From: Myxococcales bacterium | GTDB taxonomy: Bacteria; Myxococcota_A; Polyangia; Fen-1088 | NCBI GenBank assembly: GCA_003157775.1 | Contig: PMKP01000359.1 | Coordinates: 7,404-47,611 of the forward strand | Direction: 5' to 3' | Length of the DNA: 40,208 bases | Part shown: in pieces, positions 16,970 to 24,593 of the stretch | Layout: each line of letters begins with the position of its first letter | How positions within the stretch are numbered: position 1 is the first letter of the stretch | Notes under the pieces: model-generated | What the model was told of the DNA's origin: nothing | The model's database searches: none | The model's input: only the letters and a program-made list of their open reading frames with translations | Made by a program: the position numbers and the translations under genes

Positions 16970-19045
16970 CTACAACCCCGGCCGAGTCGCGGGCTCCTTG
17001 TCGATCCTGCGCAACGCCGGCTTGGTTCCGCGGGCTGCAGCAAGCTCCGCAGCCGTCAGACGGCCACTGCGTTTCATCATCGCGAGCAGATCATGAAGTC
17101 TCTGCAGCCAACCGTCGTCCACATGTCCATCACGAAAACGCCGCGCCAGCACGTGCGGGTTGGGCGCCAGCGCCGCCAAGTAGGCGGACTCGATCGGGCG
17201 GAGCTGGTTGAGTTCCTTGCCAAAGTAGGCGCGCGCGGCTTGGCGCACACCGCGAATTCCTGGGCCGAGGTCGATTACATTCAAGTAAAGCTCGAGGATG
17301 CGTTCCTTGCCAAGGAGGTTGTGTAGACGCCACGCCAGCACGGTTTCCTCCAGCTTTCGGGCCAGGGTTCGGTGGGGAGTCAAGAACAGATTCTTGGCCA
17401 GTTGCTGGGTGATGGTGCTGGCCCCGCGTCCAAAGCTGCCGGTTTCGAAATCTTGCACCAAAGCATGGCGAATCGTTTCGATGTCGAAGCCATCGTGAGC
17501 AAAGAAGCGGCTGTCTTCAGAGGTGAGAAAAGCCGCCGGCAGGTGCCTGGGCATCTCGGCCAGTGGGGCAAAATCAGGGTGGTACTTGCCCAGGGGGAGG
17601 CGTGGCGCCAAGGGGCCGGTTGGTGTCCCCCGCACAAGGGCCGGGGTCAAGCTGGCCAGCACCTGCGGTTCAGTCTTGACCGTGCAGCGCGGGTTCACCC
17701 GGACGTCCAGCGCCAGAGTTTCCCAGGCCGCGGCGTCGAAAGAAAGGGCGACGGAAACCCCCAGCTTGCCGCCCAAAACTAGCCCCTCCAATGCCTGCTG
17801 CACAGGTTGTGCTTGTGCAGCTAGCAAGGCGGCGCAAGCCAATGGCGCTGCGGGCGGTGTGCTGACGGTGATCTCACCCCGGGGCGTTCCCAGCAACTCG
17901 GCCCAGCCCTTGACGTTCAGTTGTGCGCCGAACGCACGCACCTCTGCTGCTTCGATGTCCACCCTGCCGGTCGCGCTTGTCCCTTGGCCGCTCGCGTGGA
18001 TCTCCATCCCGACATCGCGCCAGGGCATCCGGTCAACCGCCGGATGGTGCACCTGCAGCCCGCGAAACTGGCTGTCCACCTGAAAGGCAACGCCCATTCG
18101 CTCCATGTCGAAGGACGCCACGATGTGCAGGTCGGCACGCGCTTCATCTAGTCCCAGCCCGCGCGGCTCCGCGATGACGTCAAGCGCACGCAGGGGCCAC
18201 TCGTGTGCTTCGATTTGTAGGTCGGCCACATCACCTGCGGTCCGGCAAGAGATGTGCAGGCCTGAGGATGCGCCATCTGAGTCATCCGTGCGCAGGTCGA
18301 CAGACACTCCCTGCCCGGCGAAGCGTGCCTCGACCGTGGCGCCTTCTGCGAGAATGCCCCCGCCGGGGATCAGCAAGCTGGCTCGCCGACCTGTCGCAGT
18401 CACCGGCATGCCCCGCCCGCCCTCTAGCGCGACCTCAGGCAAGCGCAGGGTCGCGGCTGCACCAACCTCAAGCACAAGATCTCTCAGCAGCGCAGATTCC
18501 TTGCCTTGGGGTGAGTGCTGAAAGCTGGCATCGGGCGTGCGAAAAGCGACCCGCAGTCCGCCCGGCAGAACCACCGCGCCGTGAACCCGCGCCCTTCGGA
18601 CTGAAAAGGCAAGCGGCGCTTCGCGCGAAAGTCGGTGACCGCCCGACGCGGGGGATGGGGCCGCAGCCGACGGCCGGACGGAAAAATTGTCGGCGGTCGC
18701 CGTGCGCAGGTATTCGACGTCGAGACCATCCGCCATCACTTCGGCAGGATCCCAAAACCCGCGTTCCGGGCCGCCCAGGCGCACCACGATGCGTTCGGCG
18801 CGCAGCACCGGCTCTGAGTCGAACGGGGGCGCCCCGAAAACCTCCACTCCATGCGCGACCAGGGTGTGCAACCCGCCTATGCCGAGGCTTTCCACCCGCA
18901 CGTGACGCCCGATCGCCTGTTCCAGGCGCAGGCAAAACCACGGCACAATGCCCTTGTTCCACAGTGCGATGCCGACAGGCACCAGGACCAAGGTAGCCAG
19001 GGCTACGGCCCCCAGAAAAACGAATCGGCGGGATGTAGAGCGCAA
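16970..19045 (-). CDS. Large membrane-anchored protein with AsmA-like N-terminal region and C-terminal GT51 peptidoglycan glycosyltransferase domain
   Basis: GT51 motifs SEDSRFFAHDGFD, GRGASTITQQLAKNLFL and RKLEETVLAWRLHNLLGKERILELYLN; no transpeptidase domain. Confidence 0.85.
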   Translation of the reverse strand: MRSTSRRFVFLGAVALATLVLVPVGIALWNKGIVPWFCLRLEQAIGRHVRVESLGIGGLHTLVAHGVEVFGAPPFDSEPVLRAERIVVRLGGPERGFWDPAEVMADGLDVEYLRTATADNFSVRPSAAAPSPASGGHRLSREAPLAFSVRRARVHGAVVLPGGLRVAFRTPDASFQHSPQGKESALLRDLVLEVGAAATLRLPEVALEGGRGMPVTATGRRASLLIPGGGILAEGATVEARFAGQGVSVDLRTDDSDGASSGLHISCRTAGDVADLQIEAHEWPLRALDVIAEPRGLGLDEARADLHIVASFDMERMGVAFQVDSQFRGLQVHHPAVDRMPWRDVGMEIHASGQGTSATGRVDIEAAEVRAFGAQLNVKGWAELLGTPRGEITVSTPPAAPLACAALLAAQAQPVQQALEGLVLGGKLGVSVALSFDAAAWETLALDVRVNPRCTVKTEPQVLASLTPALVRGTPTGPLAPRLPLGKYHPDFAPLAEMPRHLPAAFLTSEDSRFFAHDGFDIETIRHALVQDFETGSFGRGASTITQQLAKNLFLTPHRTLARKLEETVLAWRLHNLLGKERILELYLNVIDLGPGIRGVRQAARAYFGKELNQLRPIESAYLAALAPNPHVLARRFRDGHVDDGWLQRLHDLLAMMKRSGRLTAAELAAARGTKPALRRIDKEPATRPGL

Positions 19046-19096: not shown

Positions 19097-20086
19097 TCAA
19101 TGCGCGGCCAGAGCCGCATCCGCCCGGCGGTCTGGACCCTCGAAGGTCATGTGTAGAGTGCGCCGATTGCGCCGTATGCCGTGGGCGCGCAGGCGCGCGC
19201 CTGCCAAGATCTCCTCGACCAGTTCGTCGAAGCCCAGGCCGGCCTCGTGCGCCATGCGGGGCAGAGGGGCTCCGGGCAAGAGCAGCGGCGCGGAATCCAC
19301 GTCCACGATGATCTCGTTGAGCCGTTCGCTTAGCACCATCTCCACACAGGCCGGGCCTTCGCAGCCCAGGGCCTCGCAGGCCTGAGTCGCCAGGCGCAAC
19401 ACCGAAGCCTCGCGGGCAGGTGACAGGCGAGCGGGCGTCTGGGGCCGGCCAGGGACGGGCGACTGGGTCCAAGATCCGGTTCGGGACACCTCCACGGCGC
19501 CCAGAGCCTGTCCGTCAAGAACCGGCACGCAGATTGGTCTACCCGGCATGAACCGCTCAACCAGGGCCTCGTCGTCCAGAGCAAATACGCCCTCTAGTGC
19601 GCTTTCCAGCTCCATCTCGTCGCGCACCAGGGTGCCCCCGAAGAGAAGGGTTGCGCCCACCGGTCGCACGACTACGGGAAAACCAAACGCGCCGTGGACG
19701 GCGCTGATGCTGTCCCGTTGCGGGGAGCGAATCAGGTAGGCGGGCGCGGTGGGCAGATTGTGCAGCCGCAGGACATCCTTGGTCTTCGCGCGGTTCATGG
19801 CCAGGGCGCAGGCCAGCACGCCCGAGCCGGTATAGGGGATCGCGAGCATATCCAGCAGCCCCTGCAGGCAGCCATCAGCGCCGTACCGGCCACGCACCGC
19901 CAAGAAGGCCACGTTTATCCCCGACTGGCGCAGGGCCACGTCGACGTGACGATCGACAAAGAGTGCGTGGACGTCATGGCCCGCTTTGCGCAAGGCTGCC
20001 ATGACAGCCTCGCCCGCTCGGACGCTAGCATCCCGTTCCAAGGAAAGTCCGCCGAGAAGCAATCCGATTTTGCGCGCAGAACTCAT
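19097..20086 (-). CDS. Ddl-fold ATP-grasp protein, probable pseudoenzyme
   Basis: IGLLLGGLSLERDASVRAG and YGADGCLQGLLDMLAIPYTGSGVLACALAMNR resemble Ddl; several catalytic motifs altered (see findings). Confidence 0.8.
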   Translation of the reverse strand: MSSARKIGLLLGGLSLERDASVRAGEAVMAALRKAGHDVHALFVDRHVDVALRQSGINVAFLAVRGRYGADGCLQGLLDMLAIPYTGSGVLACALAMNRAKTKDVLRLHNLPTAPAYLIRSPQRDSISAVHGAFGFPVVVRPVGATLLFGGTLVRDEMELESALEGVFALDDEALVERFMPGRPICVPVLDGQALGAVEVSRTGSWTQSPVPGRPQTPARLSPAREASVLRLATQACEALGCEGPACVEMVLSERLNEIIVDVDSAPLLLPGAPLPRMAHEAGLGFDELVEEILAGARLRAHGIRRNRRTLHMTFEGPDRRADAALAAH

Positions 20087-20195
20087 TCCTCACGGGTAAC
20101 GCCTGCGCGGGGCATCGTCAAAAAAACCTGTTTATCGCTCAGCGGAAAGACCCCAACGCCACGCGTGTGCAGTTTGTGGTAGAGACGGGGTCGTC

Positions 20196-21797
20196 ATGAC
20201 CTTTTTGGAAGCAGCCCTCGATATTCTAAAGCGCGAGCGCCGGCCTCTTCACTTCAAGGAACTCACCGAGAAGGCCACCGAGCGCAAGCTACTGACCTTC
20301 GTGGGGCGAACCCCCGAAGTCACCATGCAAACCCAGCTTACCGCCGCCGTGAAGAAAGCCCCGGGCAGTCCCTTCGTGCGGGTCAAGCCGGGCGTGTTCG
20401 GGTTGCTGCGCTATCCGGAGGCCCCTGCCGAACCGGAGCCGGAAGCCGCACCCGAAAAGCCACGCGAAAGCCGGGCGGCTGCCGGCGAAGCGCGCAACGG
20501 GCGCCGACGACGACGGGGAGGGCGAGGACGGCGGCGCGGGCGTGGTGATACGCCGAGCGAAGGCGTGGCGCCGAGCAGCGCTACGGGGGAGACGGCTGGC
20601 GAGGCCAGAGGCCCCGCGGAAGGGGTGGAGGAACGGGATGTGAACGAAGCGCCCGAGGAGCCTGAGAGCGGTTCTCTGTCCGCCGAGGCACGCGCGGCCG
20701 CATTGGCCGAAAGCGGAGTGCTGGAAGGCGACGGAGACGAGAGGGACTCCGAGGAGCCCGGCGAAGGAGGGTCTATCGGCGACGACAGCGCCGCGGGCGT
20801 GGTCCTGAAGGGCGAGGTCGGCGCCGAAAGCACCCAAGAGGCGGAGGCGGAGCCGGAGGAGCTCAAGCAAGGCAGAGATGAAGCCTTCGCCGCCCCAGGT
20901 GAGGCGACCACCCGAGCGGAGCTGCCCGGTGCTTCCGGCCAGCCGCCCGGCCCCAGCCAAGGGGCGGTGCAAGCGGCCGCACCTACAGGCGAGGGCACTT
21001 CGGGAACCCCCGCCCAGCCGGGGCGCAAGATCAGCTCGCCCATCGACGCGGCCATCGAGATCCTGAAAGGCCAGGCCCCTGGCCGCGGGTTGCATGTGCG
21101 TCAGATCGCAGATGCAGCGGTCCGCCGACGGCTCATCCACGGAGAGCCCAACGAGGCATGGCGGGTCATGCGAGCCGCCCTTGCGGCCGAGGGCAAGGAG
21201 AGGCTGCGCGCCGGTCAGCGGCCCCGCGTGCGACCAGCAGGCAGCGGCCTATACGCCTTGGCCCGCCGTCCGCCGGACAGTGATCTTGAGCGAGCCGAGT
21301 TCGTGCTGGGCGAGGCCAGAAAAGCCCTGCGCGAGCGCACCCTGGCTGCACTCGAACAGCGCTTGGCGGAACTGAGTCCGGCGGCGTTTGAGGCCGTGGC
21401 CCGCGTGCTTCTGCAGCGTGAGGGCTTCGGCCCCGCCACCTTTGTCAAGCGGGTCGAGGGCACGATCTACCTCGAAGGGTTGCGAGGCCGTGGCTTCCGG
21501 CCTTCGCGCTGCCTCATCGCCCTGCGGCCAGGCGCCGCGGCTGCGGGCCGCCGAGCTTTGGGCGAGTTGCGCGCGGGCATCCGAGCCCGCAACCAGGACG
21601 AAGGGGTGCTTGTGCTTGCCGGCCGGCTGGCCGACGACGCCGTCGGGGAATGGAAGCAGTCGGGCGCGCCGGTGGAAGTCGTGGATGGCCCCGTGCTGGC
21701 CGAGACCTGCGTCCGCCACGGGGTGGGTGTCATCGGTGCCGTGGTCAACGTCGATTTTGTCGACGCGGACTTCTTCGCCGAGATCTCGGAAGGATAG
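20196..21797 (+). CDS. Tandem HARE-HTH protein with C-terminal Mrr-like domain
   Basis: N-terminal LEAALDILKRERRPLHFKELTEKATERKLLTFVGRTPEVTMQTQLTAAVKK; second copy SPIDAAIEILKGQAPGRGLHVRQIADAAVRR; C-terminal LSPAAFEAVARVLLQREGFG...VVDGPVLAETCVRHGVGV. Confidence 0.75.
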   Translation: MTFLEAALDILKRERRPLHFKELTEKATERKLLTFVGRTPEVTMQTQLTAAVKKAPGSPFVRVKPGVFGLLRYPEAPAEPEPEAAPEKPRESRAAAGEARNGRRRRRGGRGRRRGRGDTPSEGVAPSSATGETAGEARGPAEGVEERDVNEAPEEPESGSLSAEARAAALAESGVLEGDGDERDSEEPGEGGSIGDDSAAGVVLKGEVGAESTQEAEAEPEELKQGRDEAFAAPGEATTRAELPGASGQPPGPSQGAVQAAAPTGEGTSGTPAQPGRKISSPIDAAIEILKGQAPGRGLHVRQIADAAVRRRLIHGEPNEAWRVMRAALAAEGKERLRAGQRPRVRPAGSGLYALARRPPDSDLERAEFVLGEARKALRERTLAALEQRLAELSPAAFEAVARVLLQREGFGPATFVKRVEGTIYLEGLRGRGFRPSRCLIALRPGAAAAGRRALGELRAGIRARNQDEGVLVLAGRLADDAVGEWKQSGAPVEVVDGPVLAETCVRHGVGVIGAVVNVDFVDADFFAEISEG

Positions 21798-21802
21798 TCG
21801 CT

Positions 21803-22525
21803 GTGGCCGCCGGCTGCCGTCCCGACGCGGAAGCCGTGGCCGAATGGTCGTGGTTGGGTCGGGTTGCCTATGGGCCGGCACTGGAACTGCAAGAGCAAAT
21901 TCGGAACGACATCCTGGCCGGCCGCAGGCGAGAAACCCTGCTTCTGCTCGAGCACCCTGCCGTGATCACGTTGGGACGCCACGCCGACCCGGCCCACGTG
22001 TTGCTTTCCATCCCGGCTCTGCGCGCTCGAGGCATCGACGTGTACCGGACGTCACGCGGAGGCGATGTGACCTTCCACGGTCCAGGTCAGCTTGTGGGCT
22101 ACCCCATCTTCCGGCTGCGCCGGGGCGTGCGCGCCTACCTGCAGGCCATGGCGACAAGCATCGTCGAGTGGCTTGCCCGCCTCGGCCTTGCGGCCGAGTG
22201 GCGCGCGTCGACCCCGGGGGTGTGGGTCGGATTCGACAAGATCTGTGCTTTCGGGGTGCACGTGCGACATGGGATCGCCACCCACGGTTTCGCTCTCAAT
22301 CTTGCCACCGACCTCGACGGGTTCTCGGCCATCATCCCGTGTGGTCTGCCAACCGCGGGTGTCACGTCGTTGGCTCGACAGATCGGGAGCACGCCCCCAC
22401 CGGAAGTGGTCGCGCGATCTCTCATCGGCTTGTTTGAGAAGAACTTTGGTGTACAACTAGTAGAGGCGCGTGTTCCCGGTTGCAATTGGACGGCGCAACT
22501 CACTAGAATGATGGAAGCATCGTGA
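21803..22525 (+). CDS. lipB: Octanoyltransferase (lipoate biosynthesis)
   Basis: LLLEHPAVITLGRHAD, RTSRGGDVTFHGPGQLVGYPI, KICAFGVHV, IIPCGLPTAGVTSL; GTG start inferred at 21803. Confidence 0.93.
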   Translation: MAAGCRPDAEAVAEWSWLGRVAYGPALELQEQIRNDILAGRRRETLLLLEHPAVITLGRHADPAHVLLSIPALRARGIDVYRTSRGGDVTFHGPGQLVGYPIFRLRRGVRAYLQAMATSIVEWLARLGLAAEWRASTPGVWVGFDKICAFGVHVRHGIATHGFALNLATDLDGFSAIIPCGLPTAGVTSLARQIGSTPPPEVVARSLIGLFEKNFGVQLVEARVPGCNWTAQLTRMMEAS

Positions 22526-23661
22526 AGGCACGGACCAGGCCGCAGATCGTAGTCCTCTTCAATCGCGACTTCGAGGGAGCCGACGCGGATCCCGAGAACA
22601 AGGCGCGCGAGGATGTGAAGGAGATAGCGGACCACATCGTTCGCATCCTGAGTGCCAACGGCTATGAGGCGTCCGGTCTGGGCGTCACCAGCGACGTGAC
22701 GGGAACGGTGAGCGAGTTGCGTGCGTGCAAGCCGGCTGCCGTGTTCAATCTTTGCGAGTCGATCCATGGGGACAACCGCTTCGAGAGCCTGCTGCCGCTG
22801 CTCATGGAGTTGGAGCGGATCCCCTACACGGGTTCAGGGCCGTTCGCCCTGTCCCTGGCGCTGCGCAAAGAAAAAGTGAAGGACATCCTCTGCGCCCGCG
22901 GCATTCCGGTGCCGAAGGGGTCACTGGTGTGCGAGACGGGCGATCTGGCTGGTCTGGCCTTGGGGTTTCCCCTCATCGTGAAGCCGGCGCGCGAGGACGC
23001 CTCGGTCGGGATCACCCGGGCGTCGGTGGTCAGCGATGAGAAGGCGCTCAACGCGCGTGTCCTCCACATCCTTGACCGTTATCGCCAGCCTGCGCTGGTC
23101 GAGGAGTACATCGACGGACGCGAGATCTACGTGTCCCTACTGGGACAGGTTGACGGCGGGCTTCAGGTCTTCCCATTTTTCGAGATCGACTTCTCTGCCA
23201 TGCCACCGGATCGGCCCAAGATTGTGTCGTTCGAAGGCAAGTGGGTGGAGGAGTCGGTTGAGTACAAGGGCACCCGACCGATCCGCTGCGAAGGACTGTC
23301 GCCTGAACTGCGCGACAAGGTGGCCCAGGCGGCCCGCGATGCCTTTCGCTGCATAGGTCTGCGGGACTACGGACGCATGGACATTCGCCTGGCCGCCGAC
23401 GGCACGCCCTACGTAATCGACGTGAACCCCAATTGTGATCTTTCGGACCTGGCGGGCGGTTTCTCCCGTGCGGCGAAGACGGGCGGGCTCTCATACAAGG
23501 ACGTGATCTTGCGGCTGCTGTCTCTGGCTCTTTCCCGGCGTTCGGATGAGACCCCGATCCCCTTGGCCGAGCCACCGAGTGAAACTGATCTCGATGCCGA
23601 GGGCGAATCACTGCCCACGGGAAGAGGTTTCGCGCCGGCGGGTGTTCGGCGGGGCGGCTGA
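22522..23661 (+). CDS. D-alanine-D-alanine ligase-related ATP-grasp protein
   Basis: AVFNLCESIHGDNRFESLLPLLMELERIPYTGSGPFAL, FPLIVKPAREDASVGI, LRDYGRMDIRL, YVIDVNPNCDL; GTG start overlaps lipB stop (GTGA). Confidence 0.85.
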   Translation: MKARTRPQIVVLFNRDFEGADADPENKAREDVKEIADHIVRILSANGYEASGLGVTSDVTGTVSELRACKPAAVFNLCESIHGDNRFESLLPLLMELERIPYTGSGPFALSLALRKEKVKDILCARGIPVPKGSLVCETGDLAGLALGFPLIVKPAREDASVGITRASVVSDEKALNARVLHILDRYRQPALVEEYIDGREIYVSLLGQVDGGLQVFPFFEIDFSAMPPDRPKIVSFEGKWVEESVEYKGTRPIRCEGLSPELRDKVAQAARDAFRCIGLRDYGRMDIRLAADGTPYVIDVNPNCDLSDLAGGFSRAAKTGGLSYKDVILRLLSLALSRRSDETPIPLAEPPSETDLDAEGESLPTGRGFAPAGVRRGG

Positions 23662-23720
23662 GGCCAACGTGCATGAGCTGGTCGTGGTGGTGGGGGTGGA
23701 TCCGGTGCACCACTTGGGCG

Positions 23721-24593
23721 ATGCTTTCGCTGGGAGCCGTCGCCTGTAAGCAGCCGAGCGCGACAAACCAATTTTGGCTCGGACCCCTAGCCATCACGCC
23801 GACGGCGAGAGCAGGTGACGAGTCTTCGCTTGTCGACCGAGGGGCGCTGGCCCAGAAGGCACGTGCGCAGCTCTTGCAAGCGGGGATCTTCGCCGGCGAA
23901 GTCCCGGAAAGCAGCAAACCCGGCGGAGCCGTGGCAACAATCCGCATCACCCTATCCATGGAAGTGGTGCGGGCCGACGGCAAGGCTGCCGTGCGCGCTG
24001 GTGTGCGGCTGAACGTCTCCACTCGCCCTGCCGGCGTCGCTCCCCAGCACTTTGGCGAAGACGTACAGGCGAATGCCGAGATGCTATACGACCCGGAGGC
24101 ACAGCCGGACAAGAAGGACGTTGTACAGCGGCTGGCAGAGCGCGCGGTCGGCGACTTGCTGGCCGGCTACGTCGCGCGCCAGAAGTTGTGGTCTGCCGAG
24201 CCCCGGACCCTTCACGCGGCCTTGGCTGCTTCCGGCGAGATGCGCCTGGAAGCCATTCGCGTGGCAGCGGCCCGCAAGCTGCGCGATGAGGTTCCCACCC
24301 TGATCGGGTTGCTCTCCGACGACGAGGAAACCATCCGGGACGCCGCACTGGGCGCGCTGGTCGAGCTGCGCGATCCGCGCGCGGTCCCGGCGCTGACCAA
24401 GAGCAAGTCGATGAAGGATGGTCGGGAGATGCGCAAGATCATCGACGCCCTTGCTGCGCTTGGGGGCCAGGAAGCCACCGACTATCTGAGCTTTGTGGCC
24501 GATGCACACGAGGACGAGGAGATCAGGAACATGGCGAAGGCAGCGCTTTCGCGCCAGAGGAGCAGAACCCAGGTTGGGACGGCCTTTCGCTAG
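23721..24593 (+). CDS. HEAT-repeat lipoprotein
   Basis: MLSLGAVAC lipobox; HEAT-like VPTLIGLLSDDEETIRDAALGALVELRDPRAVPALTKS. Confidence 0.7.
   Translation: MLSLGAVACKQPSATNQFWLGPLAITPTARAGDESSLVDRGALAQKARAQLLQAGIFAGEVPESSKPGGAVATIRITLSMEVVRADGKAAVRAGVRLNVSTRPAGVAPQHFGEDVQANAEMLYDPEAQPDKKDVVQRLAERAVGDLLAGYVARQKLWSAEPRTLHAALAASGEMRLEAIRVAAARKLRDEVPTLIGLLSDDEETIRDAALGALVELRDPRAVPALTKSKSMKDGREMRKIIDALAALGGQEATDYLSFVADAHEDEEIRNMAKAALSRQRSRTQVGTAFR

Follow-up and report, generated by a model that had tools for sequence, protein, structure and literature searches.

A degenerate D-alanine–D-alanine ligase homologue, probably a conserved pseudoenzyme, in a family of myxobacteria

Introduction

D-alanine–D-alanine ligase (Ddl) is an essential antibiotic target, inhibited by D-cycloserine. 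The roles of individual residues have been assigned from Ddl structures: K97 and K144 bind the ATP phosphates, E180, K181 and E187 contact adenosine, D257, E270 and N272 form the metal and phosphate site, and K215, Y216, R255, G276, S281 and L282 serve substrate binding and catalysis, while helices alpha3–alpha5 form most of the dimer interface (PMC6899670). Homologues of cell-wall or ATP-grasp enzymes that act without the expected chemistry have been described in other systems. In mycobacteria, CwlM is a cytoplasmic homologue of peptidoglycan amidases that has a non-enzymatic, essential role and activates MurA (PMC4946905). TTLL12 is a TTL-family protein with an ATP-grasp fold, reported to be without the expected ligase activity (PMC3520985). 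A search of the openly accessible literature found no paper on a conserved Ddl pseudoenzyme.

Here we describe a myxobacterial Ddl homologue, hereafter pseudo-Ddl, whose closest described relative is DdlB (PF07478/PF01820, PRK01372). The two proteins are alike in whole-length homology, in the ATP-grasp fold and in the glycines of the dimer interface; in contrast to DdlB, pseudo-Ddl has 16 of 18 ligand or catalytic residues replaced, has an eroded omega loop, scores below the NCBIfam cut-offs and carries an additional conserved C-terminal tail. Its locus is that of the ancestral Ddl, which is the sole Ddl in many relatives. CwlM would be an analogue in the way it works, as a cell-wall enzyme homologue that serves precursor synthesis without catalysis, although its fold and partner are unrelated and its regulatory function has been shown, whereas that of pseudo-Ddl is inferred. 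TTLL12 likewise comes from an ATP-grasp family of ligases and is reported to lack the expected activity, but it is eukaryotic and belongs to another family and pathway.

Active-site replacements in a full-length Ddl homologue

The window, i.e., the whole stretch of 40,208 nucleotides that was analysed (Myxococcales bacterium, assembly GCA_003157775.1, contig PMKP01000359.1), comes from the genome of a soil myxobacterium, in 485 contigs and 87% complete. The gene and its altered motifs are as follows, with replaced residues numbered as in E. coli DdlB and the omega-loop remnant as in pseudo-Ddl:

19097..20086, minus strand: gene for pseudo-Ddl (329 aa), from the ATG to the stop codon inclusive (open reading frame and Pfam PF07478/PF01820)
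19634..19666, minus strand: RPVGATLLFGG in place of the phosphate-binding loop VKPxxEGSSxG (K144R, S150L, S151L)
19433..19480, minus strand: omega-loop remnant, residues 203-218, shortened, disordered and drifting (pLDDT, omega, variable columns 215/216)
19340..19348, minus strand: C-V-E in place of R255-x-D257, of which the Arg served catalysis and substrate and the Asp was a metal ligand
19265..19303, minus strand: DVDSAPLLLPGAP in place of ExNTxPGMTxxSL, which holds E270, N272 and the substrate loop
19100..19186, minus strand: C-terminal tail RR...F.G.(D/E)RR...AH, outside the Ddl fold (alignment of orthologues)

Pfam profile searches of the 329-aa product returned Dala_Dala_lig_C (66.8 bits) and Dala_Dala_lig_N (59 bits), both over the cut-off, and its best matches among solved structures were E. 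coli and Y. pestis DdlB (E 2.4e-41). The best NCBIfam model was PRK01372 (Ddl), at 213 bits against a cut-off of 243, i.e., below it. We mapped 18 ligand and catalytic positions onto E. coli DdlB, with roles assigned from PMC6899670. The replacements are H63R, E68A, K97R, K144R, S150L, S151L, E187P, K215S, Y216P, R255C, D257E, E270D, N272D, G276L, S281A and L282P, with E15 and E180 still present. Both lysines that a functional ligase uses for the ATP phosphates are thus arginines; the Mg/ATP-site residues D257, E270 and N272 are also changed, to E, D and D, with their acidic character kept, and R255 together with the substrate residues K215, Y216, G276, S281 and L282 has given way to C, S, P, L, A and P, respectively. 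None of the residue signatures of a functional ligase that we examined is present, yet the sequence profile and the fold place the protein in the Ddl structural family. These replacements strongly suggest that pseudo-Ddl would be unable to make D-Ala-D-Ala. Several of them are conservative (the two K to R changes, D257E, E270D and N272D), so that a protein without ligase chemistry could still bind a nucleotide or metal.

Alignment to DdlB and to the orthologues confirmed all motif replacements quoted in the first-pass annotation of this DNA. The omega loop, which had been described there as missing, is indeed eroded, being shortened and scrambled, but it is not wholly absent; it is the sole part of the protein that drifts freely.

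Distribution, origin and the second Ddl

Orthologues were gathered from the genus, the family and the class, giving 118 in the class, and 87 of these retain all 18 residues. The degenerate site is common to 11 genomes of four genera: seven of the genus of the window (g1), two of g5 and one each of g7 and g3, all with full-length open frames. Five other members of the family, from genera g2, g4 and g6, carry at this locus a copy whose motifs are fully canonical (VKPxGEGSSLG; FYDFxNKY or near equivalents; RVDL; LExNTLPGxT). The degenerate pattern, present in 11/11 genomes of one clade and in none of 95 intact orthologues, is far more than chance would give.

Phylogenetic analysis grouped the degenerate sequences in one clade (support 100/99). 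Convergent grouping driven by the lost columns was ruled out, since the clade persists (96/89) when the catalytic columns, i.e., all eight motif blocks, are removed. A species tree built from neighbouring genes recovered the same split between degenerate and intact members, with outgroups too sparse for good rooting. Given a single degenerate clade with intact relatives around it, the simplest account would be one loss of the active site, in an ancestor shared by the four degenerate genera of this myxobacterial family.

A canonical DdlA, encoded separately, was found in ten of the 11 degenerate genomes and in intact relatives; it was not retrieved for the remaining degenerate genome, which is 76% complete. 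The first-pass annotation had proposed looking for the true ddl elsewhere in the genome, and in the genome of the window DdlA indeed lies near PBP2/RodA-like genes. Among 25 intact genomes checked, the ddl at the locus studied here is the only Ddl match in 12.

Outside the family, the same gene is partly eroded in f15, f16, f18, f20 and f21, and mildly in f22 and f24. The f20 copies have lost Y216, R255, N272 and G276 and kept K97, K144, E180, E187, D257 and E270, possibly a half-way state that would bind ATP without ligation. Another stand-alone Ddl is encoded by ten of the 12 genomes with a partly eroded copy that were checked; the remaining two have a completeness of 70% and 80%. This trend, uncorrected for phylogeny, suggests that a second Ddl frees the copy at this locus for erosion.

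Selection on the degenerate gene

Codon models gave an omega (dN/dS) of 0.124 for pseudo-Ddl within the genus, and neutrality (omega = 1) was rejected at a cost of 267 log-likelihood units (2dlnL 534). The gene is therefore under strong purifying selection, and both decay and a sequencing artefact are ruled out by this value and by the 11 genomes that share the site. In the same genus omega was 0.080 for the active DdlA and 0.13-0.26 for neighbouring genes. Intact family members showed values of 0.017-0.022 for the gene at this locus versus 0.038-0.040 for DdlA; relative to DdlA, the omega of pseudo-Ddl is thus raised about 3-4 fold in comparison with intact relatives. Constraint was relaxed but stayed strong.

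Constraint is distributed unevenly along the protein. Sliding windows gave the lowest omega at residues 49-112 (0.047 and 0.020) and the highest at the N-terminus (0.22) and in the omega-loop region (0.21); by segment, omega was 0.019 for residues 61-108, 0.26 for residues 186-222 and 0.22 for the C-terminal tail.

Predicted fold and the dimer-interface segment

The AlphaFold2 model of pseudo-Ddl has a complete Ddl fold (pLDDT 85.5, pTM 0.83) from which the active-site residues are gone, with pLDDT below 50 restricted to the omega loop (203-205, 207-212) and the C-terminal tail. All top Foldseek matches of the model were Ddl crystal structures, with TM 0.87-0.89 to DdlB. Of 64 columns that are invariant in the 95 intact orthologues, the degenerate clade retains 34 of 46 non-ligand columns and 2 of 18 ligand columns (Fisher p 8e-6). 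Chemistry has been selectively removed from a preserved fold.

The most constrained part of the protein corresponds to the dimer-interface helices of active Ddls:

19763..19906, minus strand: residues 61-108, containing helices alpha3-alpha5, which make up most of the dimer interface in active Ddls (omega 0.019)

The same segment is also the tightest in the active DdlA (omega 0.003), so the constraint may reflect folding and not a special interface. We examined five best-conserved interface positions mapped from PMC6899670 (E. coli G70, G74, V88, A92 and D96). G70, G74 and V88 are retained in 11/11 degenerate sequences. The other two are altered in the clade: A92 is kept in three sequences (G in seven, S in one), and D96 is N in 10/11 and N or H overall, H being found in intact orthologues as well. 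The helix constraint supports a retained structural or dimer surface without proving a special one.

Genomic neighbourhood and C-terminal tail

The genes and the intergenic region that flank pseudo-Ddl are as follows:

16970..19045, minus strand: GT51 peptidoglycan glycosyltransferase, probably membrane-anchored (PF00912, 167 bits), downstream of pseudo-Ddl with a 51 bp gap
20087..20195, no strand: intergenic region between the divergent genes; in an alignment, blocks ACCACAAAC and TTTTTTTGACG are conserved across the genus (g1) and in one g5 genome
20196..24593, plus strand: syntenic divergent genes for a HARE-HTH/Mrr-like protein, LipB, an ATP-grasp ligase and a HEAT protein (Pfam and synteny)
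22522-23661, plus strand: Ddl-like ATP-grasp ligase with R/D/N catalytic residues intact (YGRMDIR...VIDVNPNCD)

The catalytic motifs of the GT51 protein are intact (EDSRFFAHDG, GASTITQQLAKN, RKLEE and KERILELYLN). A GT51 gene lies beside ddl in the degenerate f1 genomes and likewise in f9, f10, f12, f13, f20, f21 and f24. In three intact f1 relatives examined (g2, g4 and g6) its slot is occupied by a polyphosphate kinase gene (ppk1), whereas members with pseudo-Ddl keep GT51. The g3 genome (G008) has the GT51 gene next to pseudo-Ddl in two pieces that lie in different frames (L071, around 7056), owing to a frameshift or an assembly error.

The ATG of pseudo-Ddl is not preceded by a well-spaced Shine-Dalgarno sequence, and a leaderless transcript is possible. 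We regard the divergent genes at 20196..24593 as a fixed neighbourhood and make no claim from them for pseudo-Ddl function. The ATP-grasp ligase among them is syntenic with pseudo-Ddl in f1, f12, f20, f23 and f24. Most of these genomes also contain open frames some 700-900 aa long, and in several cases a single frame holds two Ddl-like ATP-grasp matches (e.g., G008:C1:672836-674785).

The tail RR...F.G.(D/E)RR is present in all 11 degenerate sequences and in 27 other orthologues, intact ones included. A basic tail of the form RR-x(n)-F-x-G-x-(D/E)RR occurs on the Ddl of several Myxococcota families, intact and degenerate alike. A search for the tail elsewhere in the window's own genome gave no other clear match and hence no hint of a partner.

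Discussion

Based on these observations, we consider it quite probable that pseudo-Ddl is a genuine Ddl pseudoenzyme, whose ligase active site was lost once and which has been kept since for a non-catalytic role. This reading was put forward in the first-pass annotation, and each computational check suggested there, i.e., a separate Ddl in the genome, dN/dS across orthologues and the predicted fold, came out in its favor.

The main rival is a neofunctionalised ATP-grasp enzyme, in which a rebuilt pocket would bind a nucleotide and turn over a new substrate; it deserves this place since the lysine positions have become arginine and the metal positions are still acidic, and we consider it unlikely, though worth keeping in view. 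The rebuilt pocket would consist of R99, R141, E249, D262 and D264 (window numbering) in place of DdlB K97, K144, D257, E270 and N272. K144R and N272D are invariant in 11/11 degenerate sequences, C255, E257 and D270 are kept in 10/11, as is the acidic nature of the three metal positions, and E180 persists. Against this, the ribose/adenine contact E187, the serine loop, the Tyr and Lys of the omega loop and R255 are all lost, and genus g3 breaks the acidic triad (D257H). Replaced columns outside the omega loop are somewhat more conserved than average (0.86 vs 0.80), a difference that is not significant (p 0.12) and so lends repurposing of these residues no statistical support. Some residual or altered chemistry may nevertheless persist, as several replacements are conservative in kind and conserved between genera.

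The two remaining explanations appear very improbable. A pseudogene on its way out once DdlA had made it redundant would agree with the existence of a second Ddl and with an omega that, relative to DdlA, exceeds that of intact relatives; but omega is far from 1, the frames are full-length in every degenerate genome of the four genera, and synteny, the C-terminal tail and the intergenic region are conserved. That the protein is still a D-Ala-D-Ala (or related) ligase with unorthodox residues is equally hard to credit. Its predicted fold and its overall Ddl-like score with PRK01372, itself below the cut-off, speak for such an activity, whereas the loss of R255, Y216/K215, S150, S281/L282, E187 and both lysines speaks against it, as does the presence of an intact DdlA.

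Under the preferred pseudoenzyme reading, a Ddl paralogue would have lost its ligase chemistry with the fold retained. It probably still dimerises, and it may act by protein–protein contact or use the remodelled pocket as a sensor for a nucleotide or metabolite. The adjoining intact GT51 gene and the constrained dimer-interface segment make it plausible that the protein regulates or scaffolds envelope synthesis. The most likely setting would be peptidoglycan precursor supply, which constraint and context suggest less firmly than the replacements suggest dead chemistry. The partner of pseudo-Ddl might be the active DdlA or some other Mur enzyme of the cytoplasm. A direct partnership with GT51 is harder to picture, as the cytoplasmic part of GT51 would be no more than a short N-terminal stretch; for this reason, and with polyphosphate kinase in its slot in the intact g2, g4 and g6 relatives, a direct scaffold for GT51 was ranked lower.

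More tentatively, and with less than even confidence, we suggest that the second Ddl of Myxococcota repeatedly began to lose catalysis at one locus, and that in one family it may have become a dedicated regulatory pseudo-ligase controlling peptidoglycan precursor supply, e.g., by pairing with DdlA or another Mur enzyme and signalling via the C-terminal tail. If true, such a protein would be a CwlM-like control point made from a ligase. An intact ancestor, intermediate erosion and the end state are found at one largely syntenic locus with an active paralogue present, and the path from enzyme to pseudoenzyme is therefore directly testable. Pseudo-Ddl may also bring to light a new regulator of the supply of cell-wall precursors in these bacteria.
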